A DNA stretch of 21,561 nucleotides from a virus. Of the stretch, positions 2,562 through 21,561 are shown piece after piece. Each line of letters opens with the position of its first letter. Position 1 is the first letter of the stretch. Location: positions 1 to 21,561 of IMG/VR virus record IMGVR_UViG_3300046517_001774; one strand, 5' to 3'. Position numbers and translations under genes: made by a program. The notes under the pieces are model-generated. The model was not told the DNA's origin, ran no database searches, and worked only from the letters and a program-made list of their open reading frames with translations.

Positions 2562-3245
2562 TTACGCGGGCGCGGATGGGGGATTTTCCCACCAATGCCA
2601 GCTATTTTCGGGCGATAAATGAGGGATGCCGCGTTCGAAGCAGCGTCGGCGATGGCGCTCCCATGTCTGCCGCGCTGAGACACTGCATCGCCTCTTATAG
2701 ATGCGATCATGACCGGGGTAGCCGTGCTCGAGCTCTGATGCGATCTCCCTCTTTAGGTCGTTCAGCATTGATCCGGAAGGGAACGCGAACCATTCCGTGC
2801 TTCGCCCGACTCGATAGCCGCAGAGTTGTTCTTTCCAGAATTTCTCAATGCTGGAGGCAAATCGGCTCTTCACAAACATGCTGATCGTTATTTGAAATGG
2901 CAGGCCTCGATCCAATTGGCTCATGCGCCCTTCCGGCCTAGAGGTGATTCCGATTTTGAAAATCGTTTTGCCGGCGACGAAGAGGGAGGATTGGGCTCGA
3001 ACCATATAAAAATGGGCGTCATCGCCATCGGCGACGGGTGATCCCATAATGCTGATTTTCAGTGGCTTCTCGACCTTTGGCTTTTGCGGTCTCGCGGCGT
3101 GCTCTTCCGACTCCCACTGCATGGCCAATTCAAGGGCCTGTGAATGCTCAGTCATTTTGGTGGTCCTACGGCGCCAACGCTTGTCGCGATCGCGAAAGAC
3201 GGCTGACCAATAGGGCGAGTTCGGGTGCTTATGAACGCTGGCCAT
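2562..3245 (-). CDS. GIY-YIG/T5orf172-like nuclease with a tyrosine-recombinase-type N-terminal domain
   Basis: The only minus-strand gene (227 aa from the ATG at 3245; a TTG three codons upstream is an alternative). Residues 1-45 (MASVHKHPNSPYWSAVF, then a basic strand and QALELAMQWE) resemble the SAM-like/arm-binding N-terminus of phage tyrosine recombinases, but no catalytic recombinase domain follows. Residues 78-155 resemble T5orf172/MUG113 members of the GIY-YIG nuclease superfamily: HFYMVR at 78-83, FKIGIT at 96-101, R104 or R107, the potential metal-binding E134, and STEWF at 149-153. A basic Trp/Arg-rich tail (190-227) may also bind DNA. Its stop is 2 bp from the protease stop, and it separates two head genes that normally adjoin. 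That is the placement of a free-standing homing-type endonuclease. The gene is less GC-skewed than its neighbours. The nuclease assignment is moderately sure; the mobility is inferred. Confidence 0.7.
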   Translation of the reverse strand: MASVHKHPNSPYWSAVFRDRDKRWRRRTTKMTEHSQALELAMQWESEEHAARPQKPKVEKPLKISIMGSPVADGDDAHFYMVRAQSSLFVAGKTIFKIGITSRPEGRMSQLDRGLPFQITISMFVKSRFASSIEKFWKEQLCGYRVGRSTEWFAFPSGSMLNDLKREIASELEHGYPGHDRIYKRRCSVSARQTWERHRRRCFERGIPHLSPENSWHWWENPPSAPA

Positions 3246-3386
3246 AGCCGGCAATCCTACACCCTACAGCGCGGTTGGCCTCCGCGAACAGATGCCAATG
3301 ACACGGGCGGACTCCTGCGACCTTTAGCGGCCCGCTGATTTCGGCTTGACGCGAAAAGTTTGGGAGTCGATGGGGATGGGGTTTCG

Positions 3387-4912: not shown

Positions 4913-4918
4913 GTTAAC

Positions 4919-4945
4919 CGCATAGAACGCAAAGAGCGCAAAGCG
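4919..4945 (+). repeat. 9-nt tandem repeat CGCAWAGAR x3
   Basis: CGCATAGAA, CGCAAAGAG and CGCAAAGCG follow GTTAAC right after the terminator. A second array with the same GTTAAC leader lies at 10422-10448. The 70 bp that follow, up to the ATG at 5016, also look like short intergenic repeat material (GGACATTGAATGACCAATGG). Confidence 0.7.
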
Positions 4946-5015
4946 GAAAAATGGGCATTGGACATTGAATGACCAATGGTGTGGACAGGGTTGTCCAAGG
5001 TTGGCAGGGTTTGGG

Positions 5016-7247
5016 ATGGCGAAGCCTTTGATTTCTCTGTGCATGATTGTGGGCAATGTGCAGGAGTACATTGAGAGATGCCTGAAGAGCTTTGCGCCGC
5101 TGGCGGATGAGATTGTCCTGGTGACAGCGACGGGGAATCAAGACGAGGATGGCACGATCGCCAAGGCGCATAATTTTTGCCGCACACACGGGATCGATTT
5201 CGTGATCGGGAAGTACCACAACCAGGCCGAGCATAGTGATTGGCCGCATGTGGATTCGTTTGCGGCGGCGCGGCAGATGTCGTTTGACCTGGCTACGGGG
5301 CAATATTGCTTTTGGTGCGATTCGGATGATGTCCTGGAGTCGGGAGCGAAGGAGGCCCGGGAGCTGGCGGAGCGCGGGGGATTTGCGGCGTTTGTGTTTC
5401 CTTACCGGATCTTCGGGCGCGGACTGATGGTGCCGCGGGAACGGATGATCCTGAAGGGGGCGGGGCAATGGAGGTTTCCGGTGCATGAGTGCTTTAAGTT
5501 CCACGTGGAACCAGTCCAGGCGATCGAGGACCAGCGGGTGGTGGTGAAGCATTTGCCGCATGCGACGAAGACGGGGAGCAATCCGCGGAATCTGACGATC
5601 CTGAATTCCATTCCCAAGGAGGAAATGACGACGGGGCTCTGGTACCACTTGCACCTGGAGCGCGAGCTGGCCGGCGATACGGAGGGGAGCATCGAGGCGG
5701 CGAAGATCGCGCTGGCGGCGCCGGATATCGGCAAGCCGGAGAAATACGAGATTTTCCTGAACATGGCCCAAGCCTCAGGGGATGATCCGGCGGCGAAGGA
5801 GGTCTTTTTGCACCAGGCTTACCAGGCGGATGCCCGCCGGCGGGAGGCGCTTTTCCTGCTGACGTCCAATGCGCTGAATTATGGCCAGGACGAGCTGGGG
5901 CTGGCTTACGCGCGACAGATGATGGCGACGCGGGGCCCGGAGATCCGGGACTGGAACGATCGCGCGGCGGTCTATGGCTGGGCCGGCGATGACATTTATA
6001 CGCAGGCGCTGCGGGCCAATGGACGGGTGGGCGAGGCTGAATTTGTGCGGGCCGAGAGCATGAAGCGGGCGGGAGGTCCGCGGATCGCCTTGATTCACGC
6101 GACGCGCGGCCGGGCGCGCCAGGCGTCCAAGGCGCGCAAGATGTGGCTGGACCTGGCGGAGCGGCCGGACCGGGTGGAACATCTCTTTGTCATCGATGAC
6201 GATGACGAGGCCAGCTTCGCGCTCGAGCGATTGAATTGCCTGAAGGTGCCGGCGGGCGGCGGTTGCGTGGCGGCCTGGAATGCGGGGGCATTTTCGACGG
6301 TGGCGCCGGTGCTAGTGCAAATGAGCGATGATTTCATTCCGCCGGCGGCCTGGGATGAACTGATCCTGCAGCGGCTCGGGGATGTGGGCGAGGCGAAGGT
6401 GCTGGCGGTGAGCGACGGGCTGCGGACCGACAAGCTGCTATGCATCGCGATCATGACGCGGGCTTACCTGGCGCTGGACTGGTTTATGTTTCACCCGAAT
6501 TTCACGGGCGTTTATTCGGACAATTGGTTTACGAGTGAGGCTTACCGGCGCAATGCGGTGATCGAGGCGCGCGACCTGGTCTTCATGCATGATCATCCGG
6601 CCAAGACGGGCGCGCCGATGGATGAGACCTACCTGCGGCAGAATAATCCGGAGCGATACGAGGAAGGCCGGCGGATCAAAGATGATCTCTATGCGAAAAA
6701 GGATTGGGCGAGCGTGCCGGGCTTTTTCAACTACTGGCCCTTCTATGACATGATTGCCCGGCTGCTGAAGAGCGGCGACACGGCCGTGGAGGTCGGGTGC
6801 TGGCTGGGGCGATCGATTATTTTCCTCGCGCAGCGGCTGAAGCCAATGCCAAAGCTGGTACGGCTATTCGCGGTGGATCATTTCCGTGGGGAGACGAACC
6901 AGAAGGAGCACGAGGAGACGGTGAAATTCTGCGGGGGCAACCTGAGGGACGCTTTCGAGGCGAACCTGCAGCGCTGCGGGGTGACTGAGTACGTGGGGAT
7001 CATCGAGGCGGATAGCGCGGAGGCGGCGGCGAGGTTTATTGGGACCGGGCTGGCGTTTGTGTTCATCGATGCGGCGCACGATTACGAGAGTGTGAAACGG
7101 GATATCGCGGCGTGGCTGCCGAAGATGAAGCCGGGCGGGATTATTGCGGGGCACGATATTCAATGGCACGAGGTGGATCGGGCGGTGACTGAGCTACTGC
7201 CGAAGGCGATGAGGCTGGGGGGCGTTTGGTTTTGGAAGGTGGAATGA
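5016..7247 (+). CDS. Fusion protein: GT2 glycosyltransferase, second GT-A-like domain, SAM methyltransferase
   Basis: A 743-residue multidomain enzyme. Residues 4-180 form a GT2-type GT-A domain: PLISLCMIVGNVQEYIERCL at the start and the metal/nucleotide-sugar motif DSDD at 102-105. A helical, TPR-like region (about 205-350) follows. Residues 355-530 look like a second glycosyltransferase-like domain, with FVIDDDDEAS at 391-400, MSDDF at 436-440 and FMHDHP at 523-528. Residues 570-743 are a class I SAM-dependent methyltransferase: motif I VEVGCWLGRS at 591-600, AVDHF at 619-623, FIDAAHDY at 683-690 and PGGIIAGHD at 706-714. I chose the ATG at 5016 over one 17 codons upstream because the upstream residues come from repeat-like DNA and the GT fold starts right after 5016. 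The stop overlaps the next start (ATGA). It is probably cytoplasmic and builds or caps a glycan on a virion or envelope substrate; the substrate is unknown. Confidence 0.85.
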   Translation: MAKPLISLCMIVGNVQEYIERCLKSFAPLADEIVLVTATGNQDEDGTIAKAHNFCRTHGIDFVIGKYHNQAEHSDWPHVDSFAAARQMSFDLATGQYCFWCDSDDVLESGAKEARELAERGGFAAFVFPYRIFGRGLMVPRERMILKGAGQWRFPVHECFKFHVEPVQAIEDQRVVVKHLPHATKTGSNPRNLTILNSIPKEEMTTGLWYHLHLERELAGDTEGSIEAAKIALAAPDIGKPEKYEIFLNMAQASGDDPAAKEVFLHQAYQADARRREALFLLTSNALNYGQDELGLAYARQMMATRGPEIRDWNDRAAVYGWAGDDIYTQALRANGRVGEAEFVRAESMKRAGGPRIALIHATRGRARQASKARKMWLDLAERPDRVEHLFVIDDDDEASFALERLNCLKVPAGGGCVAAWNAGAFSTVAPVLVQMSDDFIPPAAWDELILQRLGDVGEAKVLAVSDGLRTDKLLCIAIMTRAYLALDWFMFHPNFTGVYSDNWFTSEAYRRNAVIEARDLVFMHDHPAKTGAPMDETYLRQNNPERYEEGRRIKDDLYAKKDWASVPGFFNYWPFYDMIARLLKSGDTAVEVGCWLGRSIIFLAQRLKPMPKLVRLFAVDHFRGETNQKEHEETVKFCGGNLRDAFEANLQRCGVTEYVGIIEADSAEAAARFIGTGLAFVFIDAAHDYESVKRDIAAWLPKMKPGGIIAGHDIQWHEVDRAVTELLPKAMRLGGVWFWKVE

Positions 7248-10414: not shown

Positions 10415-10421
10415 AGTTAAC

Positions 10422-10448
10422 CGCAAAGATCGCAAAGATCTCAAAGGG
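10422..10448 (+). repeat. 9-nt tandem repeat CGCAAAGAT x3
   Basis: CGCAAAGAT, CGCAAAGAT and CTCAAAGGG follow GTTAAC two bases after the tail tube stop. The leader and unit are shared with 4919-4945. The array ends 20 bp before the next ATG and may supply the AAGGGGAAA purine tract there. Confidence 0.7.
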
Positions 10449-12302: not shown

Positions 12303-13082
12303 ATGCCGAGAATTAACGGAGTTGCGGGGGCCTATTTGCAGCCGATCCGGTATGGGTTCGACGAGGGAGGGTCTTTCGCGGAGTACACCTGGATGGGCAC
12401 AAGGGCCGCCATTCAATTGCAATGGGCCAACCTGCAGGGGACGGGGAGCTTGCTCAATATCGAGCAGTCGCCGAGCGGGGCGTGCGACAAGCTGGTGGCG
12501 CGGTGGAATTTCCTTCCGGGCGGTACCGGCGGCGATCCCGGACAGGACTTCGTGGATACCTGGGAGTTCTTTGCCAATGAGCACGAGAAGGATGTGCTGC
12601 AATCGGACACGGCGGTGGTGCGGGCTTTCAATGAGGATGATTTCGCGGCGGCCAAGGCAATGTTGCAGGATCCCGCATCCGTAAAACCGCTGGCGACGGC
12701 CGTCAATAATGCGTTCTCGTCCGGCGCGAAAGCGGCGGGCGCGGAGACGTTGATGCGGCTGATGTTCGGCGGCTTTACCTCGGCGAGAATTTTTCAGCCG
12801 ATCATCCGGCACACGCAGACGGTCACGAACCAATGGACGATTCCAGCGGCGCAAACAAACGTCAAAAAGGTCATCAGCACGGCGAGCCTGATCGCGCTGG
12901 AGGCCATTCCCAACCATATCCTTTTCCAACTGCCTAACGACGTTTCGACGAAGGCGGATTTCAGCTATGGCTGGTATAAGAAATTTCCGACTACGAGGAC
13001 GGCCGCGCGGCAGCGCACGCAGCTCGAGCAAGAATGGGAATATGGGCTCTGGCCGATTTTAATTGTGGGGACTCCGCTATGA
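12303..13082 (+). CDS. Tail protein of unknown type, possibly distal tail/tip
   Basis: A 259-residue protein three bases after the tape measure and coupled to the next gene by ATGA. Lambda has gpM at this position, but the length is twice that of gpM and I see no similarity. The first half is beta-like (LQPIRYGFDEGGSFAEYTWMG and IQLQWANLQGTGSLLNIEQ). The middle is helical (EDDFAAAKAML and KPLATAVNNAF). The C-terminal half is beta-rich with Trp-Thr-Ile-Pro and ends EQEWEYGLWPILIVGTPL. The order suggests a distal-tail or tip component that starts tail assembly. No catalytic motif is visible. Confidence 0.55.
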   Translation: MPRINGVAGAYLQPIRYGFDEGGSFAEYTWMGTRAAIQLQWANLQGTGSLLNIEQSPSGACDKLVARWNFLPGGTGGDPGQDFVDTWEFFANEHEKDVLQSDTAVVRAFNEDDFAAAKAMLQDPASVKPLATAVNNAFSSGAKAAGAETLMRLMFGGFTSARIFQPIIRHTQTVTNQWTIPAAQTNVKKVISTASLIALEAIPNHILFQLPNDVSTKADFSYGWYKKFPTTRTAARQRTQLEQEWEYGLWPILIVGTPL

Positions 13083-13522
13083 TCAACCTGCCGATGCCGC
13101 CAGATGGGTCTGGAGCTGCTGCGCGCTGGTTTAAGCGGGTGCTGCAATGCATCGAGGCTCGCACGATCAGGCCAGGGCCTGGCTATCGCGTGAAGGAGGG
13201 CACGGGCGGAACGATTCTGGAAATCAATCCGGGGACGGGCGGTCCAGGCGGTCTGCCATATAAAGGTGATTTCGATGTCACTCAGTCTTACAAAAAGGAC
13301 GATATCGTCCGCTCGCGCAACGCACCTTATGCGCTCGGGCTCTTCATTTGCGTGAAGGATAATCCGGTCGTGGCGGGGATCTGCATCCCGCCGACTTTTC
13401 CGGAGCCGGCCGACAGCGGTGGTACCAACTATTGGGACCTTTGGTCGCTGGGAGTGAAACAGTACACGGCCTGCAGGGGAGGCACGGGCAAGACGACGTA
13501 TATAAACTTGCTGGAGGTTTAA
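13079..13522 (+). CDS. Tail-tip protein with carbohydrate-binding-like domain
   Basis: A 147-residue protein. I chose the ATG at 13079, which overlaps the previous stop, over an in-frame start 15 codons upstream. After a helical N-terminus (ARWFKRVLQCIEARTI) and a Gly-rich beta segment (GTGGTILEINPGTGGPGG) comes a module reminiscent of small carbohydrate-binding or fibre-attachment domains: FDVTQSYKKDDIVR, then LFICVKDN, then YWDLWSLG. The 'Y-x-x-x-D-I-V ... Y-W-x-L' pattern is common in phage fibre adhesin modules. Its stop overlaps the next start as TAATG. A baseplate or fibre-connector role is likely; ligand unknown. Confidence 0.55.
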   Translation: MINLPMPPDGSGAAARWFKRVLQCIEARTIRPGPGYRVKEGTGGTILEINPGTGGPGGLPYKGDFDVTQSYKKDDIVRSRNAPYALGLFICVKDNPVVAGICIPPTFPEPADSGGTNYWDLWSLGVKQYTACRGGTGKTTYINLLEV

Positions 13523-15075
13523 TGCCCGGCCCTGCCAATGACAATTTTGCGAATGCGACGGCGCTCGGCGGTTACGCCGGCGCGGCGAGCGGATCCAATA
13601 TCGGCGCGACGGGCGAAGCAGGCGAGCCGGCGAACGCAGGCAAAACGGTTTGGTGGGTTTGGTCGCCGCCGGTGGCCGAGACGGGCGGCGGCCGCTACGT
13701 CTTCGGGACCCGGTACCGGCCGGGCGTGGGCCTGCCGGAGACGAGCATCGCCACGGTGATCAATGTCTATCGCGGCACGACGCTGGCCGGGCTGGTCCAG
13801 GTGGGCGCGGCGACTACTTACGCAGGATGGGAACGCCAGGGCGAAGTGACCTTCGACGCGGATCCGAGCCATACCTATTACATTCGCGTGGACGGCATCG
13901 CCGGCGCCGAGGGGAACATTTTACTCTGGTGGGAGCCGGCTACGCAGCTCGAGCCCGGGGACTGCTCCGGATGCCCGCCGGGGAACAGCTTTGGCCGGAC
14001 ATGCGTCGGGAACTGGAATCCTGATATCTCGCGCGAGGGGACAATGGTTTTCTCGGGCGTGCCGGCAGGAGTCTATGAGCTGGCCTATTGCCGGGGCTCC
14101 TGGAACTACCGCGACGGATGGGTTGTGAGCCGGGTACCGCAATCGGCTTTGCAGACCTGGCCGCTCGGTGACTTGAGCGGATATTTCTTTTATGCCGAGT
14201 ATTCTAATAACGGCATTCAGCACGCGGGGCTGCCGGAACCGGTACCGCCGGGCGTGGGCTATGGCAACCGATTCCTGGCGGAGGACGCGGCGAAGTGCTC
14301 GCGCCTGGTCTTCCGGCATGACGCGGCTGCGCCGATCAAGCTGAGGTTCACCGACAACGCATTCGGCGACAACGTGCCGGCGCCCTACGATTCGACGCCG
14401 ACTTATGTGCTGAACAAGATTGCGATGGCGTTCAAGGCGAAGACGGCGACGTTCTTCCTGGATTCGCCGGGGGTTTATGATTCGAGTTTCCTCTTTGATA
14501 ACCTGAGCGACATCACCTGGACGTCCGTGAGCGCGACGCTGGCGCTGACGGGCGGAATTGTGGCCTGCTCGAATTGCCCTCTCACGGGAATCACGATCAA
14601 CGCCAACCAGGTGAACAAAGCGGTCGGGTTTGTATTCACGGTCAGCCCCTCGAGCAAGCTGGACGTGATGGCGACGATTCTTTTTTCGGACGCTTTTGGG
14701 AACAGCGCGGCGATCGTGTATGACCTGACGCCGAGGATCACGATCACTTTCGGCAGGGTAACAACGGGAACCTTGGCCGGGGCAAGGCGCTGGATAATCA
14801 CTTTCAATATCAAATGCGATGGGTTGCCGACCCTGGCGCTGGTGGTGACGCCGCGGCTGACGGGCGGCGTGAGCGATTTGAGGGATTGGTCGAGCGGCGC
14901 GCCGATCAGCTCGATCGCAGTGGGGGCGGTGTCGAGCAATATATCGACGTTCTCACTGGCATTCACGCCGACGCCGGTGGGCTTGACGGGCGTGACATTT
15001 ACTTTTGACCTGGCTGACGCAACTGCGGGATTGAGTTTTCCGCCGGCGGTCATCGCGGCCTCGGTGCCAATATGA
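13522..15075 (+). CDS. Large tail protein with N-terminal NDNFANA-type adhesin domain
   Basis: A 517-residue protein starting at the TAATG overlap (13522). A longer in-frame start 30 codons upstream would overlap the previous gene and is not used here. Residues 1 to about 138 match a beta domain common in secreted Verrucomicrobiota and related bacterial proteins: PANDNFANATALGG at the start, SNIGATGEAGEP, VWWVWSPPV, TVINVYRGT, HTYYIRVDG. It then has a Cys/Gly segment (GDCSGCPPG), an extracellular-type beta region with paired Cys, and a C-terminal half of Thr/Val-rich Ig-like strands. Unlike the next genes it has no signal peptide. The domain suggests an adhesin captured from host secreted proteins and used on the particle. 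Coupled by ATGA to the next gene. Confidence 0.65.
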   Translation: MPGPANDNFANATALGGYAGAASGSNIGATGEAGEPANAGKTVWWVWSPPVAETGGGRYVFGTRYRPGVGLPETSIATVINVYRGTTLAGLVQVGAATTYAGWERQGEVTFDADPSHTYYIRVDGIAGAEGNILLWWEPATQLEPGDCSGCPPGNSFGRTCVGNWNPDISREGTMVFSGVPAGVYELAYCRGSWNYRDGWVVSRVPQSALQTWPLGDLSGYFFYAEYSNNGIQHAGLPEPVPPGVGYGNRFLAEDAAKCSRLVFRHDAAAPIKLRFTDNAFGDNVPAPYDSTPTYVLNKIAMAFKAKTATFFLDSPGVYDSSFLFDNLSDITWTSVSATLALTGGIVACSNCPLTGITINANQVNKAVGFVFTVSPSSKLDVMATILFSDAFGNSAAIVYDLTPRITITFGRVTTGTLAGARRWIITFNIKCDGLPTLALVVTPRLTGGVSDLRDWSSGAPISSIAVGAVSSNISTFSLAFTPTPVGLTGVTFTFDLADATAGLSFPPAVIAASVPI

Positions 15076-15377
15076 GGGTAAGGCTAAGCGAGATCCGCGG
15101 GGCTTGCATGGAGCGACCGGGGGCTTGGGATGATTTCATGGGGCTGGGGCAGATTCACGGGGATTGTTTGGAGATCTCGCGGGCCAATTTCGACGTGGTG
15201 ATGAAGAGGAGGTTTCAGGGGCTGGCACTCGGGACTCTCTTGCACCAGGTGCTCGAGCCGGCGGCGGCGGTCATGGGCTGGCAGGATTGCGGAGGGTGTG
15301 CGGAGAGGGAGATGAGGTTAAACCGCCTTGTTGACGGCGACGGGTGGTTGAATGGGCGCACTCAGGTTAGCGGTTGA
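15072..15377 (+). CDS. Small CxxC protein of unknown function
   Basis: A 101-residue protein whose ATG overlaps the previous TGA and whose end overlaps the next start by 26 bp. The middle is helical (FDVVMKRRFQGLALGTLLHQ). The C-terminal third has WQDCGGCAEREMRLNRL, a CxxC motif followed by a basic helix. The same pattern is frequent in small proteins of phage tail regions, so this may be a metal- or disulfide-stabilised accessory of tail assembly. No catalytic function can be claimed. Coding use rather than chance overlap is supported by its position in the coupled series. Confidence 0.6.
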   Translation: MRVRLSEIRGACMERPGAWDDFMGLGQIHGDCLEISRANFDVVMKRRFQGLALGTLLHQVLEPAAAVMGWQDCGGCAEREMRLNRLVDGDGWLNGRTQVSG

Positions 15378-15972
15378 TTTGCAGAATAAGGTCCTGGTGT
15401 CGTACCTGGGATCGGCGGGGATTATTCCGGGGCTTTTTCAATCGAACGTGGTGACGCTGCAGGTGCAAGGCCTCGAGGCGACTTCGAATATCAATTCGCC
15501 CTGGACGTTGGCGAATCTTTCCACTTACGGGCTGAGGGCCTCGGTGGGGCAGCAGCCGACGGGGACTTCTGGAGGGCCGGCGCCGCTCGCTTTGCAGGAC
15601 ACTTTTGTTTGGAACGCGGCGGGGAGCTATTTCTCGGCGGATCTGAATCTGGCGGTGGCCGCGGTGGACGCATACATCGGGACCGCGGCTGCGAAGTCGG
15701 CTTGGTTCGAGTTGAACCTGACGCTGGCGGGGAATCGGATCACGATCCTGCAGACGCAGTTCAACTTGATGGCGGTTGTCGACGAGCTGACGTCCACAGT
15801 GCCGGGGCCGACGGATCAATACATGACCAAGGCGGAATGCCTGGCGCTTTTCCAGAAGATGGTTGGCGATCTGGGCCAGGTGCAACAGTTCCGGAGCCAG
15901 AATGGGGTTTATGGCAGGGAGCTCGGCGTGGCGAACGATGGGACGGCGACCGACAACATTATTACGCTATGA
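15352..15972 (+). CDS. Tail/baseplate protein of unknown family
   Basis: A 206-residue protein starting inside the previous gene (26-bp overlap) and ending in ATGA with the first signal-peptide fibre. The sequence is beta-rich (VLVSYLGSAGIIPGLFQSNVVTLQVQGLE and DLNLAVAAVDAYIG). A helical C-terminal part follows (DQYMTKAECLALFQKMVGDL), which resembles the linkers that end phage adhesin or upper-fibre proteins, and the final residues are GTATDNIITL. There is no signal peptide. It probably connects the tail tip to fibres. The family is not recognised. Confidence 0.58.
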   Translation: MGALRLAVDLQNKVLVSYLGSAGIIPGLFQSNVVTLQVQGLEATSNINSPWTLANLSTYGLRASVGQQPTGTSGGPAPLALQDTFVWNAAGSYFSADLNLAVAAVDAYIGTAAAKSAWFELNLTLAGNRITILQTQFNLMAVVDELTSTVPGPTDQYMTKAECLALFQKMVGDLGQVQQFRSQNGVYGRELGVANDGTATDNIITL

Positions 15973-17258
15973 GAAAGAGGATTTTTGCGGTCTTCATGCT
16001 GGTAATGGCGATCTGGCTGGCGCCGGAAGTGAGCTCGGCGCAGCGGGTTACGGCGAGCGTGACTTTTACGAATGCGGCGGGGACGACCAATGGGCAGACG
16101 CTTACGGTGAATGCGGCGGTGCGGACTTTCACGAATTCGGTGGTTATCAGCTCAATCCAGATCGGGACCAACTCGACGCCGGATGGGAGCAAGACGAATG
16201 CTTTCAAGCAGATTGGGCTCAATCCTTTTTCGCAGGTGACCATGCTGGATGGGGGCGTCACGAATTTCACGCTGGCGGGCGCGAGCGGAGTGGCCATGAC
16301 GGTGACGCTGTCGGCCGGGGTCGGGACGGTCACTTACAGCACGCAGGTGGTTGCCACGGTTACGGAGTTCAGGATTCCGTGGGAGAGCGAAGCAATCGGG
16401 CAGCGGACGAACGTCGTCAGCGACGTGGCGCGCGCGCTGGATAGCTCCTCGAACACCAATGTAGTGCATGAGAACGCTCCGGCGATGGCGAATTTCATGG
16501 GGCTGACGAATGTGCAGCTATCTGTCCCTGGGGCGAAAGGATTGACGAACCTGGCCAACCTGGTGAATGGGACGATGGTGCTTATCAGCGGGTCTTACGT
16601 GACGAATCCGGCGGCGAATGTTTGCGACTTTTCGATTATCGGAAGCGCTGGGACTGGAGGGCATGCGTCGCTCCTCGAATGCACGCCGGCCGGCCTCATT
16701 ATTTCCACGGTTGGAACCATCTATCTACACAATCCAGTGAACATGAATGGCGATATGGCGCTGAACACTTTCAACATCGTGGGCGGCCGGATTCAGATCG
16801 GGACCAATGGCTTTGTGGGCAACGGCGCGAGTTTGACCAATATTCCGGCGAACGGGCTGCAGGTTGGGACGGTGGATGGGAGCGTGGTGACCAATCAACT
16901 CGTGGTGCCGGGGAAGATCTGCTTTCCGAGGTTTCCCATTACGAGCCTGGCGAATGGGAACAATTCGGATCTGCCGATCGGCACGAATACGTTCATCGAG
17001 GTCAGCGGGCCGAGCGGGGCTTTTGCGATCCTGGGCATCGACGGCGGCCGCGACGGTCAGCTTTGCACGGTGATCAATCAGACGGGGTTCAACATGACGA
17101 TCGCGACGGAGGGCGGCGCGACGGGGAATGACACGACGGCGGCGAACCGGATTATCTCGATGAGTGGCGCCGATCGCGCCACGACGGGTAATGGGGCGGC
17201 GACGTTTATGTATTCGGGGGCGGCGAGCCGGTGGATCCTGATCGCGTTTGAACCATGA
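15969..17258 (+). CDS. Signal-peptide-bearing tail fibre-like protein
   Basis: A 429-residue protein starting at ATGA (15969). A longer open frame upstream is a shadow of the previous gene. Residues 1-24 are a textbook Sec signal peptide: MRKR, a hydrophobic core IFAVFMLVMAIWLA, and a probable cleavage site after SSA at 22-24. The mature part is Asn/Thr/Gly-rich with fibre-type repeats, including GLTNVQLSVPGAKGLTNLAN and the diagnostic 'GNGASLTNI' unit (FVGNGASLTNIPANGLQ). A C-terminal beta domain follows (FNMTIATEGGATGNDTTAAN), ending WILIAFEP. Fibre-type sequence plus an export signal is unusual for tailed-phage virion proteins. It is coupled by ATGA to a 36-codon frame. Confidence 0.72.
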   Translation: MRKRIFAVFMLVMAIWLAPEVSSAQRVTASVTFTNAAGTTNGQTLTVNAAVRTFTNSVVISSIQIGTNSTPDGSKTNAFKQIGLNPFSQVTMLDGGVTNFTLAGASGVAMTVTLSAGVGTVTYSTQVVATVTEFRIPWESEAIGQRTNVVSDVARALDSSSNTNVVHENAPAMANFMGLTNVQLSVPGAKGLTNLANLVNGTMVLISGSYVTNPAANVCDFSIIGSAGTGGHASLLECTPAGLIISTVGTIYLHNPVNMNGDMALNTFNIVGGRIQIGTNGFVGNGASLTNIPANGLQVGTVDGSVVTNQLVVPGKICFPRFPITSLANGNNSDLPIGTNTFIEVSGPSGAFAILGIDGGRDGQLCTVINQTGFNMTIATEGGATGNDTTAANRIISMSGADRATTGNGAATFMYSGAASRWILIAFEP

Positions 17259-17365
17259 AAATTTGCAAATTTGCAATGCCGTTCGCGCGCCTGATTTTCT
17301 GGGTGCTGCTGGCTTTTCATAGCTGCGAGCCGAGTTACGCGGCGCAGGTGGTTTTTGAGCCTTGA
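17255..17365 (+). CDS. 36-codon signal-peptide stub
   Basis: ATG at 17255 overlaps the previous TGA. The product has a Sec-like signal (MKICKFAMPFARLIF, core WVLLAF, Cys24, cleavage near YAA at 28-30) and then only QVVFEP. The stop at 17363-17365 is two bases before the next ATG. The same FEP ending occurs in the preceding protein, so this may be a fibre gene deleted between its signal peptide and last residues, or a small secreted peptide. The start region holds an 8-nt repeat (AAATTTGC twice). Confidence 0.45.
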   Translation: MKICKFAMPFARLIFWVLLAFHSCEPSYAAQVVFEP

Positions 17366-17367
17366 AT

Positions 17368-19545
17368 ATGAAAAAACTTCTCTCCGGCCTTCTTTTGTTC
17401 GCGGCCGGCGCCGCATGGGCATCCACAAATTTGGTGAACGCGACATACATTTACGCGGACTTTCAACTAACGCCGCAGGCGCTTCTCCGCATCACCCAGA
17501 CGCCCCTGGCTCCATTTGCGGATTATGGCGGCAACACTCTGCTTACTCCTCAGCCAATCTATCAGCTCACGAGCCCAAGCGGTTCGGCGACGTTTTCAAA
17601 TACCGTTGCGGGCTACGCTTACCGCATTCAACTCGACACGATTCACGGCTCGACGATTCGAACATGCGGATATCCGGCGACAGTTTCGGGAAACGTGAAT
17701 GGCCGGGATTACCTGGGGGACATTCATGCGATGTCGTTTTATTATCTATACAGTACTAATCCCATAGCTCCGGCGGCGGTGACTAATTTTGATACTCGGA
17801 GCCTGGAGATGGATGGTGACCTTTTTACTTTCGGCGGCGCGCAAGTTGTTTTTCCGAGCGACAATTTTATCGATAATGACGGCTATCACGCCAATGCAGG
17901 GCTAAGCCAGACATTCAGCACGACCGACGGTAAATTTGATGCAGGCGGGTCCGATGGGCATTTGAATTGGGCTGGATTGGCGAATGGGAATGGGGGCGGG
18001 GTAACCAACATACCCCTGCGCGTTGCGGGCGCTGGAATCACGCTGACAACTCCGGGTGGAACTAATGTGCTGACGGTGACCGCGACCGGCGGTGGCGCCA
18101 CATTTACGAACTTCCCGGCCGTTCTCGACTCTGAGACTTGGTCCTGGGAGAACGAAACAAATCAGCCCATTGCCTATAGCAGCCTGGTGAGCAAGGGCTG
18201 GTATCCGCTGGGAGCAAGTCTGTCGCTTTACAACACGCTCACGAATGTGCTCTGCATCACCAATGAGGGATGGGGCGGAAGCATCGTTTGCAAGGGAATT
18301 GGCCAGCCCGCCTTGTACTTATACAAGGGTTTTGATCCGCTTAGCCCGAAGCGAATTCGCGGGGTTTCAGTCAAGTTCCTGTTCTCAACTGCCTACGCGA
18401 ACGTTTACAACTACGCATACGCATTCACCAGGTATCCGGTGCTTATTGCCTCTCCGGCCAGTCCGGTGGATGCCACATTTAGAACCTTCGGAGTTCCTGT
18501 CGGGCCGACGTTTCACCTGCAGTACATTGCCGCGTCTGGTTATTATGCTGTGGACATTTTCACCAACGGGCTGGGGACCGTTTACACGAATGAAGACACG
18601 CTTGGCAGGAATTGGATAATGCAGCAAGGAAGAAGTGGGGGCTCTTACTACTATCCTCCAACGGAGCTGGATATAGGGCAATACCCCCAAACCAACACCG
18701 TCATGACGTGCGGGTGGGAGCTTATGAGCGAAAGCGCGGTGAGAGTCTTTCAAACTGGTGCCTCCGACGTGATCCGGACGGTGGATTATCTGACCAATGT
18801 TTTCACCAGCATCACCAACGTGGTGGTCGAGACGTTTCCCATAGATAACGGAGGAACGGCAATGCAGGGGCAGGCGGCGATCCAATCGATCACAGTGTTT
18901 TATTCCCCCCGCACCGTATGGCCGAGCGGTTTATATCTAACCACCAATGGCCCGCAGTCAATTTCCTACAGCGCTCGGGCCACGAATACCGCGACAACCT
19001 CGCTGACGGTGTCCGGGGCATGGCCAGGACAGATTAATAGCAACGCGCCGGCGCAATCCGGGAATGGGACGACCAACTATAACTTCCACGAGTTCAACAC
19101 CAACACGGTGAATGGAAGCTGGATGATTCGCGGGACCAACATGGGAATCGTGGGGACTAATGCTACGGGGCCGAATCAGAGGTTTGATATAACCAATGGG
19201 GCGGCGACGTATCAGGGTACGGTTACGGCCAGCGCTTTCATTGGGAGCTTTGGCGCCATTACCAATTCATGCACCTGGAGCAACCTTCAGGAGGTGGCGA
19301 CATCGGCGGACATAACCATGTCGGCCTCGGGCAAAGACGTCCTGGCTGTGACGCCGGGCGCCAATATCAACGTCATTCTGCCGGCGGCGGGGCTGTATAT
19401 CGGACACGAAAAGAGAATCTTATGCGTGAGTGCGGGCGCCTTTGTAATAACCGTCAAAGACAGTGGAGGAAATGTGCGAATGACGTTGCCCGACGCCACT
19501 GGCTTCACCTGTGCTTGGTTAACAGGCGGCTGGTTCAAGGAATAG
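17368..19545 (+). CDS. Large signal-peptide-bearing fibre protein with lectin-like centre
   Basis: A 725-residue protein. ATG 17368 is chosen; TTG 17362 is an alternative that overlaps the previous stop. Residues 1-18 are a signal peptide (MKKLLSGLLLFAAGAAWA, cleavage after AWA). The N-terminal 200 residues are beta-rich. At about 206-218 the fibre unit NGNGGGVTNIPLR appears, followed by GITLTTPGGTNVLTVTATGGG. The centre (about 255-520; LDSETWSWENETNQPIAY, later WELMSESAVRVFQTG) looks like a jelly-roll or LamG-type lectin fold. The last 180 residues carry more fibre-type repeats (QGTVTASAFIGSFGAITNS) and a C-terminal cap ending AWLTGGWFKE. Composition is less GC-rich than the head genes, suggesting a separate history. 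The specific ligand is not determinable. Confidence 0.7.
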   Translation: MKKLLSGLLLFAAGAAWASTNLVNATYIYADFQLTPQALLRITQTPLAPFADYGGNTLLTPQPIYQLTSPSGSATFSNTVAGYAYRIQLDTIHGSTIRTCGYPATVSGNVNGRDYLGDIHAMSFYYLYSTNPIAPAAVTNFDTRSLEMDGDLFTFGGAQVVFPSDNFIDNDGYHANAGLSQTFSTTDGKFDAGGSDGHLNWAGLANGNGGGVTNIPLRVAGAGITLTTPGGTNVLTVTATGGGATFTNFPAVLDSETWSWENETNQPIAYSSLVSKGWYPLGASLSLYNTLTNVLCITNEGWGGSIVCKGIGQPALYLYKGFDPLSPKRIRGVSVKFLFSTAYANVYNYAYAFTRYPVLIASPASPVDATFRTFGVPVGPTFHLQYIAASGYYAVDIFTNGLGTVYTNEDTLGRNWIMQQGRSGGSYYYPPTELDIGQYPQTNTVMTCGWELMSESAVRVFQTGASDVIRTVDYLTNVFTSITNVVVETFPIDNGGTAMQGQAAIQSITVFYSPRTVWPSGLYLTTNGPQSISYSARATNTATTSLTVSGAWPGQINSNAPAQSGNGTTNYNFHEFNTNTVNGSWMIRGTNMGIVGTNATGPNQRFDITNGAATYQGTVTASAFIGSFGAITNSCTWSNLQEVATSADITMSASGKDVLAVTPGANINVILPAAGLYIGHEKRILCVSAGAFVITVKDSGGNVRMTLPDATGFTCAWLTGGWFKE

Positions 19546-19547
19546 CT

Positions 19548-21561
19548 GTGCTGAGAGTACTTGCACTTCTAATCTGCCTGACACTTCCGGCGCGGGCCTT
19601 TTTCCCAGCGCAGGGAGAGTCGATCATCAATTCCTGTGTAGCGGTCTGGACGGCGTGGGACTACGACCCGGTAAACAATCGGTATCCCAACATCGGGCAG
19701 AGCCAGAACGGGACCAACCTTTTCATGGTGGAGGATGGAAACAGCGTCTTGCGCCCGACTCGGCTGATCGGCAGCGGCTACCTGTGGATGCCGGGGCAAA
19801 ACAACAATAGTGCATCCATCACGAACGCGACCGCCTACAACCTGACGAACGATTTTGAGATTCGGCTGGATGCGGCGTTGGACAGTTGGGCGAGCGGGAA
19901 TCTGGCGTCCAAATCATTCAACACACCGCAGAGGACATGGGAGATGACTTGCACCTCGAGCAAGTTCGCGCTGGGAATTTCAACGAATGGAACGGGCCTG
20001 CTCCCCAATACTCAGAGCGCCGCGCACGGACTTGCTGCCGGTCAGCGAATGGCGGTGCGGGTGACGGTTGGCCAGGTGAACGATAACATCGTGATGACCT
20101 GGTACACCAACACGGACATTAACGCGCTGAACTGGACTCAACTGGGAAGTCCTGTGACAAATCTGAACACCAGGATGACGAACATTTTCAACAGTGACTC
20201 GAGGGTTTACTTGGGAGCAGTGGCCGGTGCGAACAGCGCGAAAGGCAAGTTTTACGGGTTTCAGATCAGGCAGCCGATTGGCGGATCGAATGTCGTTTAT
20301 TTCGACAGCACGCTATGTGGGCAGACCGGATATACGGATACGAACTGCACACCCAACGCGGTCTGGACTTTGAACCGCGGGACATATCCGCTCAGCTTGC
20401 GGCAGCCTACTTCGATGGCGGTGTGGCTTCCCAACCCGGCGGCCAGCAATTACCTGGCATGTGTGAGCAGTTCGCTGCTGAGCTTTGGGGCGGCGACTAA
20501 TGGATCAGTATTTGCGGTGGCGATGTCGCATGGAGGGGAGTCCAACCGAAGGCTGGTGAACAAACGAACCACGGGTTCAACGGACGCTGGTTATGAGTTG
20601 AAATATGCGGGATCGGCTCAGCCTAGCGCGATCATAGCGGATGGCACCCACAGCGCCACCGGCAGCAGTTCGGCACCCACGCCGGCCAGCGACACGCTGG
20701 TGTTCCTGATGCTGGGACTGATTAACAGCAATGTGGTCAATTCGGTTGACGGCACGAATGGGACGGCGCCGATCAATCGAACGCCGACGTTGAGCATTGA
20801 TAGCTCGACAATGCTTTACTTGATGGGCTCGGCCAGCACGGGCCAATTCGACTTTGCGCAATGCGAGCTGGTGGGCGCGGGGATTTGCAAGCGGACATTG
20901 ACCACAAATGAGCAAATACGACTCAAGCAGGAAATTGTTAATCGAGGCAACCGGAACGCGACCAGCACCAACGACCCTGGGTTTCCCAGGTTCAAATGGC
21001 CGGCCGGAACGAATATAACGGGGCCTTACCCCCTGGTGCCGACGATTGTGAATGCGACCGTCTCAGCGCCGAACTCAAGCGCGGCCACGGAGGGCAGCAT
21101 CCCGTCGCATAAATACAGCCATCACACGCGAATCGCCGCGCAGGCTTTGTCTGGCGGGGGCTATATGGAGTGGGTGGCGTTTTCTTCGAACGCGACGAAC
21201 GAAACGGACGGGGGCATGCAGACGGCGGTCTGCTATTCAACTGATAAAGGGGTGACCTGGTCGGCGCCATTGCTGGCGGTGCCGAGCCAGAGTAACTGGC
21301 AGCTTTCGCAACCGACGAACATCGTAGGTTCGAGGTACGCCTATCCGCGCAATTTCACGCTCTATAATGGGACCAATTACCTAATCGTCGGCGTGGACGA
21401 TCTCCTGGACACGGGAGGTGATCTGCACGGCGCGGCGCTCTACGCGATCGCCTGCAACACCAATGGGACGCTCGGGACGCTGTTCCGAATCTCTTCGGCG
21501 GCATGCCCCACCGTGGATGGGAAGACAGTGCCGGCATACGATTCGACGCTGGGGCCGCCGC
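19548..21561 (+). CDS. Signal-peptide-bearing LamG/sialidase-like fibre or glycan-binding protein (3' truncated)
   Basis: Open from a GTG at 19548, two bases after the previous stop, to the window end: at least 671 residues. No ATG lies near the true start. Residues 1-17 form a signal peptide (core VLALLICLTL, cleavage after ARA at 15-17). The next part (about 35-245) is LamG-like beta structure, including NLTNDFEIRLDAALDSW, MAVRVTVGQ and KFYGFQIRQ. A second related beta segment follows. Near the end an exact Asp-box, STDKGVTW (about residues 565-572), precedes a sialidase-type beta-propeller start (APLLAVPSQ, later YLIVGVDDLLD). That predicts a sialidase-like or carbohydrate-binding beta-propeller. 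Whether it has the catalytic residues cannot be judged, as the gene is cut. Confidence 0.7.
   Translation, partial: MLRVLALLICLTLPARAFFPAQGESIINSCVAVWTAWDYDPVNNRYPNIGQSQNGTNLFMVEDGNSVLRPTRLIGSGYLWMPGQNNNSASITNATAYNLTNDFEIRLDAALDSWASGNLASKSFNTPQRTWEMTCTSSKFALGISTNGTGLLPNTQSAAHGLAAGQRMAVRVTVGQVNDNIVMTWYTNTDINALNWTQLGSPVTNLNTRMTNIFNSDSRVYLGAVAGANSAKGKFYGFQIRQPIGGSNVVYFDSTLCGQTGYTDTNCTPNAVWTLNRGTYPLSLRQPTSMAVWLPNPAASNYLACVSSSLLSFGAATNGSVFAVAMSHGGESNRRLVNKRTTGSTDAGYELKYAGSAQPSAIIADGTHSATGSSSAPTPASDTLVFLMLGLINSNVVNSVDGTNGTAPINRTPTLSIDSSTMLYLMGSASTGQFDFAQCELVGAGICKRTLTTNEQIRLKQEIVNRGNRNATSTNDPGFPRFKWPAGTNITGPYPLVPTIVNATVSAPNSSAATEGSIPSHKYSHHTRIAAQALSGGGYMEWVAFSSNATNETDGGMQTAVCYSTDKGVTWSAPLLAVPSQSNWQLSQPTNIVGSRYAYPRNFTLYNGTNYLIVGVDDLLDTGGDLHGAALYAIACNTNGTLGTLFRISSAACPTVDGKTVPAYDSTLGPP

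Follow-up and report, generated by a model that had tools for sequence, protein, structure and literature searches.

Genome organization of the window and its fibre region

The window analysed here is the whole 21,561-nucleotide stretch (21.6 kb) of virus record IMGVR_UViG_3300046517_001774, and encodes a lambda-type portal, an S49 head protease, a coat protein and a tape measure. Genes were called with a purpose-made gene caller. From the portal their order runs through the protease, a scaffold-like gene and the coat gene to a glycosyltransferase/methyltransferase gene, followed by tail genes and the tape measure and then by the tip genes (12303-15972) and the fibre region. A single cultured relative was found, Verrucomicrobia phage P8625, which has the same order of portal and coat genes, with 26–27% identity in the portal and 27% in the coat protein; nearer relatives stand at 44–56%. 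Between the protease and scaffold genes there is an ORF of about 230 aa on the minus strand (2562-3254), the rest of the operon being all on the plus strand; by eye, it has an integrase-N-domain-like start and a GIY-YIG-type or related domain in mid-protein. A glycosyltransferase-2 gene behind the coat gene is seen in the window's clade (window 4965-7247, L139:5842-8421, L142:9359-10591 and L140:5607-6812). The window copy has a methyltransferase domain, and the copies in the relatives were called by eye from their sequence; the product might modify sugars of the virion or of the host. Two similar intergenic stretches of the AACCGCAtAGAaCGCAAAGAgCgCAAAG type (4917-4946 and 10416-10446) resemble dispersed chromosomal repeats.

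The fibre genes 15969, 17368 and 19548 lie behind the tape measure and tip genes within the structural operon, and all are on the plus strand. The last tip/adaptor-like gene (15352-15972, plus strand, 206 aa) encodes no signal peptide and overlaps the first of them. A weak homologue of its product (L148:6639-7235, 26% identity, pairwise E 2e-4) is likewise encoded directly upstream of a signal-bearing fibre and also has no signal, and the 15352 protein may act as an adaptor for such fibres.

The first fibre gene (15969-17258) starts with an ATG overlapping the previous stop (ATGA) and encodes a protein of 429 aa with the predicted signal peptide MRKRIFAVFMLVMAIWLAPEVSSA (15969-16040). It is 35% identical over its full length to L148:7232-8728, with a pairwise E of 1e-17 for the C-terminal domain, and each of the two has its own signal; an AlphaFold model built with one homologue was uninformative (pLDDT 31). 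The next ORF (17255-17365, plus strand), whose ATG overlaps the stop of 15969, encodes only 36 aa and comprises a signal peptide followed by AQVVFEP. In relative L003 the fibre N-domain opens with a similar stretch (A↓ATVVFDLSDF), and on this likeness the ORF is probably a relic of an older signal-bearing fibre gene. The second fibre gene (17368-19545) begins with an ATG 2 nt behind the stop of 17255 and encodes a 725-aa protein with the signal peptide MKKLLSGLLLFAAGAAWA (17368-17421) and a beta-rich N-domain. The mature N-domain aligns with signal-bearing proteins of four relatives at 23–27% identity. Its model is of modest quality (pLDDT 64), and the best named viral fold matches, to minor tail and tail fibre proteins at E 0.013 and weaker, are only suggestive; a PDB search with the model was uninformative. 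The third (19548-21561) begins with a GTG 2 nt behind the stop of 17368 and is cut by the contig end, leaving a lectin-type protein of at least 671 aa with the signal peptide MLRVLALLICLTLPARA (19548-19598). It has a possible Asp-box motif (BNR/Asp-box match at E 0.19 only), and over residues 65-263 it matches minor tail proteins of Streptomyces phages at E 1e-5. This is the one recognised tail-family match among the signal-bearing proteins of the window, the family libraries giving only distant phage matches, or none, for the bodies of 15969, 17368 and 19548.

The initial annotation described four consecutive fibre-region genes here. Its coordinates and starts are right, each start being pinned down by an overlap with the preceding stop or a gap of 2 nt to it; three of the four are of fibre or lectin type, and the 36-aa ORF at 17255 is no fibre gene.

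Predicted signal peptides

Signal peptides were scored with a PWM around the cleavage site together with n-h-c rules, using a training set of 28 E. coli signal peptides and a check against 42 annotated E. coli genes. In that check TolB, CpoB, YbgS and ModA were clearly found, soluble cytoplasmic proteins gave zero positive scores, and scores near 3 went to Pal, a lipoprotein, and to N-terminal anchors (TolA and TolR, for example). The chance rate of a positive score is 1.5% when every start codon of the window is taken and 0.9% for shuffled N-termini. All four N-termini for which Sec-type signals had been proposed are positive, with scores of 3.3 (15969), 9.0 (17255), 13.2 (17368) and 3.3 (19548), and the best cleavage sites are SSA↓QR, YA↓AQ, AWA↓ST and LPA↓RA, respectively. 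For 19548 the signal call itself holds, although the cleavage after ARA proposed initially (ARA↓FF) lies two residues beyond the site that the scorer prefers. The four N-termini thus fit the predicted form of Sec/signal peptidase I substrates, with n-h-c organization and a small-residue cleavage site. No other gene in the window has a positive score, and the tip genes (12303-15972) give either no score or −10, bearing out the abrupt change noted behind them.

Because membrane anchors and Pal also score near 3, the calls for 15969 and 19548 carry less certainty than the two with higher scores (17255 and 17368), and it is for 15969 and 19548 that recurrence in relatives matters most. A chance origin of the window signals is ruled out by the null rates together with that recurrence.

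Signal-bearing fibre genes in related phages and prophages

Used as direct queries against IMG/VR, INPHARED and 388 Verrucomicrobiota genomes, the window fibre proteins gave nothing, or weak LamG-region matches only. Relatives were therefore collected via portal alignments, and these alignment-based scans yielded 72 relatives, mostly P8625-like, as well as nearer relatives at 37–56% portal identity and prophages in Verrucomicrobiota genomes. Three stretches (G409, G411 and G414) stop short of the fibre region.

Signal peptides were sought at the homologous fibre loci and proved recurrent, with signal-bearing genes in the fibre region of every close relative in which that region is covered. Relative L138 has three in a row behind the tip genes, the last encoding a LamG protein; L143 encodes a 1076-aa signal-bearing protein and then a LamG one; L141 has signal-bearing proteins of 1265 aa and 152 aa; L147 and L148, which belong to one record, have them in both places, after the coat gene and after the tip genes; and L003 has one such gene behind the coat gene. 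Among Verrucomicrobiota prophage stretches, 6 of 17 (L150, L157, L158, L159, L161 and L162) encode signal-bearing proteins at fibre positions. With a lenient test applied to genes of at least 150 aa, 25 of 146 are positive in the window's clade versus 3 of 276 in P8625-like records (Fisher p 8e-10), the former count including a few lipoproteins or doubtful calls and some genes counted twice in overlapping stretches. The three P8625-like positives look like hydrophobic stretches in tape-measure-sized proteins. The scorer found none in Bacteroides phage B40-8 or Flavobacterium phage 6H, and in lambda it found Lom and gave one weak call in a fibre gene. The fibres of the P8625-like sister phages and of several prophages are without signals, and export is thus not obligatory for such phages.

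Signal-bearing proteins are also encoded directly behind the coat gene, the head-fibre position, in four stretches (L147:7636-14968, L144:5239-6483, L158:2914-4878 and L003:1-696), and head fibres may be exported too.

Several of the proteins behind the signals are recognisable as fibres. Tail fibre families are matched by L159:13304 and, at 2.6e-14 for one family, by L158:15680 (signal score 17), and L150:12616 is homologous to phage antireceptors; L161:6177 combines a GDSL esterase domain with a tail-protein C-terminus, and L148:7232 has YadA-head repeats and a weak match to a lower-baseplate N-domain. The fibre start motif NIGTSPNDGTGD is matched from residue 22 of L147:8785, just behind the signal, and from residue 3 of gp46 of a Nonlabens phage, which indicates that the signal is an added leader before an ordinary virion module.

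The presence of LamG lectins and a GDSL esterase among these proteins, and the fact that several can stand in succession in one phage, would also suit free soluble lectins or esterases that are no part of the virion, but are released at lysis to target host polymers, or receptors on cell debris and nearby cells, as a release aid, a decoy or a block to superinfection. We consider this unlikely, because attachment-type modules are present (the PNDGTGD motif and tail-fibre C-termini) and because some relatives have no fibre candidates behind the tip genes other than the signal-bearing proteins.

Behind the signal-bearing fibre of L157 and L158 there are two further signal-bearing proteins of 296 and 201 aa (L157:13314-14806 and L158:16714-18206). 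The 296-aa protein of L157 has no PHROG match, and the two could possibly be periplasmic fibre chaperones or lysis proteins.

Conservation and composition

The fibres L157:12280 and L158:15680 have 285 of 319 mature residues identical and only 9 of 17 in the signal, and despite these changes both keep the n-h-c form and the A↓QNAAVTKN site. For the next two signal-bearing genes of these prophages, signal versus mature identities are 14/20 versus 225/276 and 13/18 versus 145/183; from these alignments, faster divergence of the signal than of the mature fibre is one clear case and no rule. The homologues 15969 and L148:7232 likewise each retain a signal although its sequence has changed. The bodies of the signal-bearing fibres contain about 20% Thr/Asn, versus 9.5% for other genes. 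Cysteine is not enriched (0.54% versus 1.07%), and disulphide formation or periplasmic oxidative folding as the reason for export consequently finds no support.

The Thr/Asn-rich bodies could reflect capture of exported host proteins, and the hydrophobic N-termini would then be non-working leftovers inherited with them. This we regard as improbable: the signals are carried by unrelated fibres in many phages, they keep the n-h-c form while the sequence changes, and some of the bodies are plainly phage modules. Many of the phage cleavage sites, moreover, end in A↓Q, a site seen in 4 of 20 host signals too.

Probable export and proposed fate of the fibres

The usual view is that the virion proteins of tailed phages are assembled in the cytoplasm. 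A Sec signal in a diderm host takes a protein to the periplasm. Export of the window fibres by Sec is very probable, and is well supported by the recurrence of signals in relatives, by their position exactly before conserved virion-fibre modules, and by their retention while the letters change. The initial annotation had left it between exported fibres, attached to virions or to the cell, and secreted coats or decoys; export is likely, virion fibres are favoured, and coats or decoys less so. What favours virion fibres is the position of the genes, the gene without a signal just upstream, and the phage fibre domains in relatives, and on this basis we lean somewhat towards incorporation of the exported proteins into virions.

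One of the two main competing explanations, beside free lectins or esterases, is lysogenic conversion, in which lysogens or infected cells would export these proteins, which would then cover the host surface or occupy receptors, in the manner of Lom, and never be on virions. Lambda does have its outer-membrane gene lom between its fibre genes, and relatives of the window carry integrase-like genes or lie inside bacterial genomes. These relatives are also the basis for speaking of a prophage, as was done initially, no integrase being seen within the window itself. Further, signal-bearing proteins of prophages L154 (14286-15605) and L160 (12025-13245 and 17678-18796) end in a hydrophobic stretch and arginines, as for surface sorting of the PEP-CTERM type, and are candidates for lysogenic conversion or host genes. 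However, inspection reveals no such C-terminal hydrophobic anchor in the complete window proteins 15969 and 17368 or in the signal-bearing fibres of relatives, nor is a second secretion signal visible in 15969 and 17368, and a Sec signal alone would bring them only as far as the periplasm of a diderm host. The genes also occupy the fibre slots of a late structural operon, and in relatives phage fibre modules stand directly behind the signal. We therefore think lysogenic conversion unlikely, if the strongest of the alternatives.

Our preferred reading, to which we give a probability of roughly 55%, is that these are genuine receptor-binding fibres that are exported by Sec, held in the periplasm, and join cytoplasmically built virions at lysis. 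The capsid, tail tube, tip and 15352 adaptor would be made in the cytoplasm, and the distal fibres 15969, 17368 and 19548 would be translated late from the same operon, pass through SecYEG and be cut by signal peptidase I. The mature fibres would fold and wait in the periplasm until lysis opens the membranes, when virions would meet and bind them and the infectious particles would be complete. Whether this extends to a whole group of temperate tailed Verrucomicrobiota phages, with a cytoplasmic core and with receptor-binding tail fibres (and head fibres) Sec-exported and attached only at lysis, we judge to be evenly balanced.

Recurrent, lineage-wide export signals on the fibres would mean one of two things. 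They could reflect a novel way of assembly that holds the receptor-binding part away from the virion until lysis, and this might prevent newly made virions from attaching to receptors of the dying cell, or make use of periplasmic folding factors. Or they could mark secreted phage lectins, a large class so far undescribed. Fibre annotation would change as well, a signal peptide no longer being grounds for rejecting a fibre call. No precedent for signal peptides on phage fibres was found in the literature searched, which included few subscription papers.

Comparison with known systems

The tail fibre region of P8625 (gp22-gp24, NC_029047) lies behind the tape measure and tip genes as in the window, and gp24 is annotated with a lectin-type domain, a further likeness. 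Unlike those of the window, the P8625 fibres are without signal peptides by our scorer, and in the P8625 genome paper SignalP detected signal peptides in zero proteins (PMC4642752). The fibre connectors of Nonlabens phage P12024S (gp46) and a cyanophage (gp9) have the same fibre N-terminal motif as L147:8785, although in gp46 it begins at residue 3 and there is no signal peptide. Lambda Lom is exported, as the window fibres are predicted to be, and its gene too lies in a fibre region, that of a temperate tailed phage; it is, however, annotated as an outer-membrane protein, and is the product of a single gene separate from the fibres themselves. The coat proteins of filamentous phages are, like the proposed state of the window fibres, virion proteins with cleavable Sec signals; filamentous virions, however, are assembled in the membrane and extruded without lysis, unlike tailed capsids.
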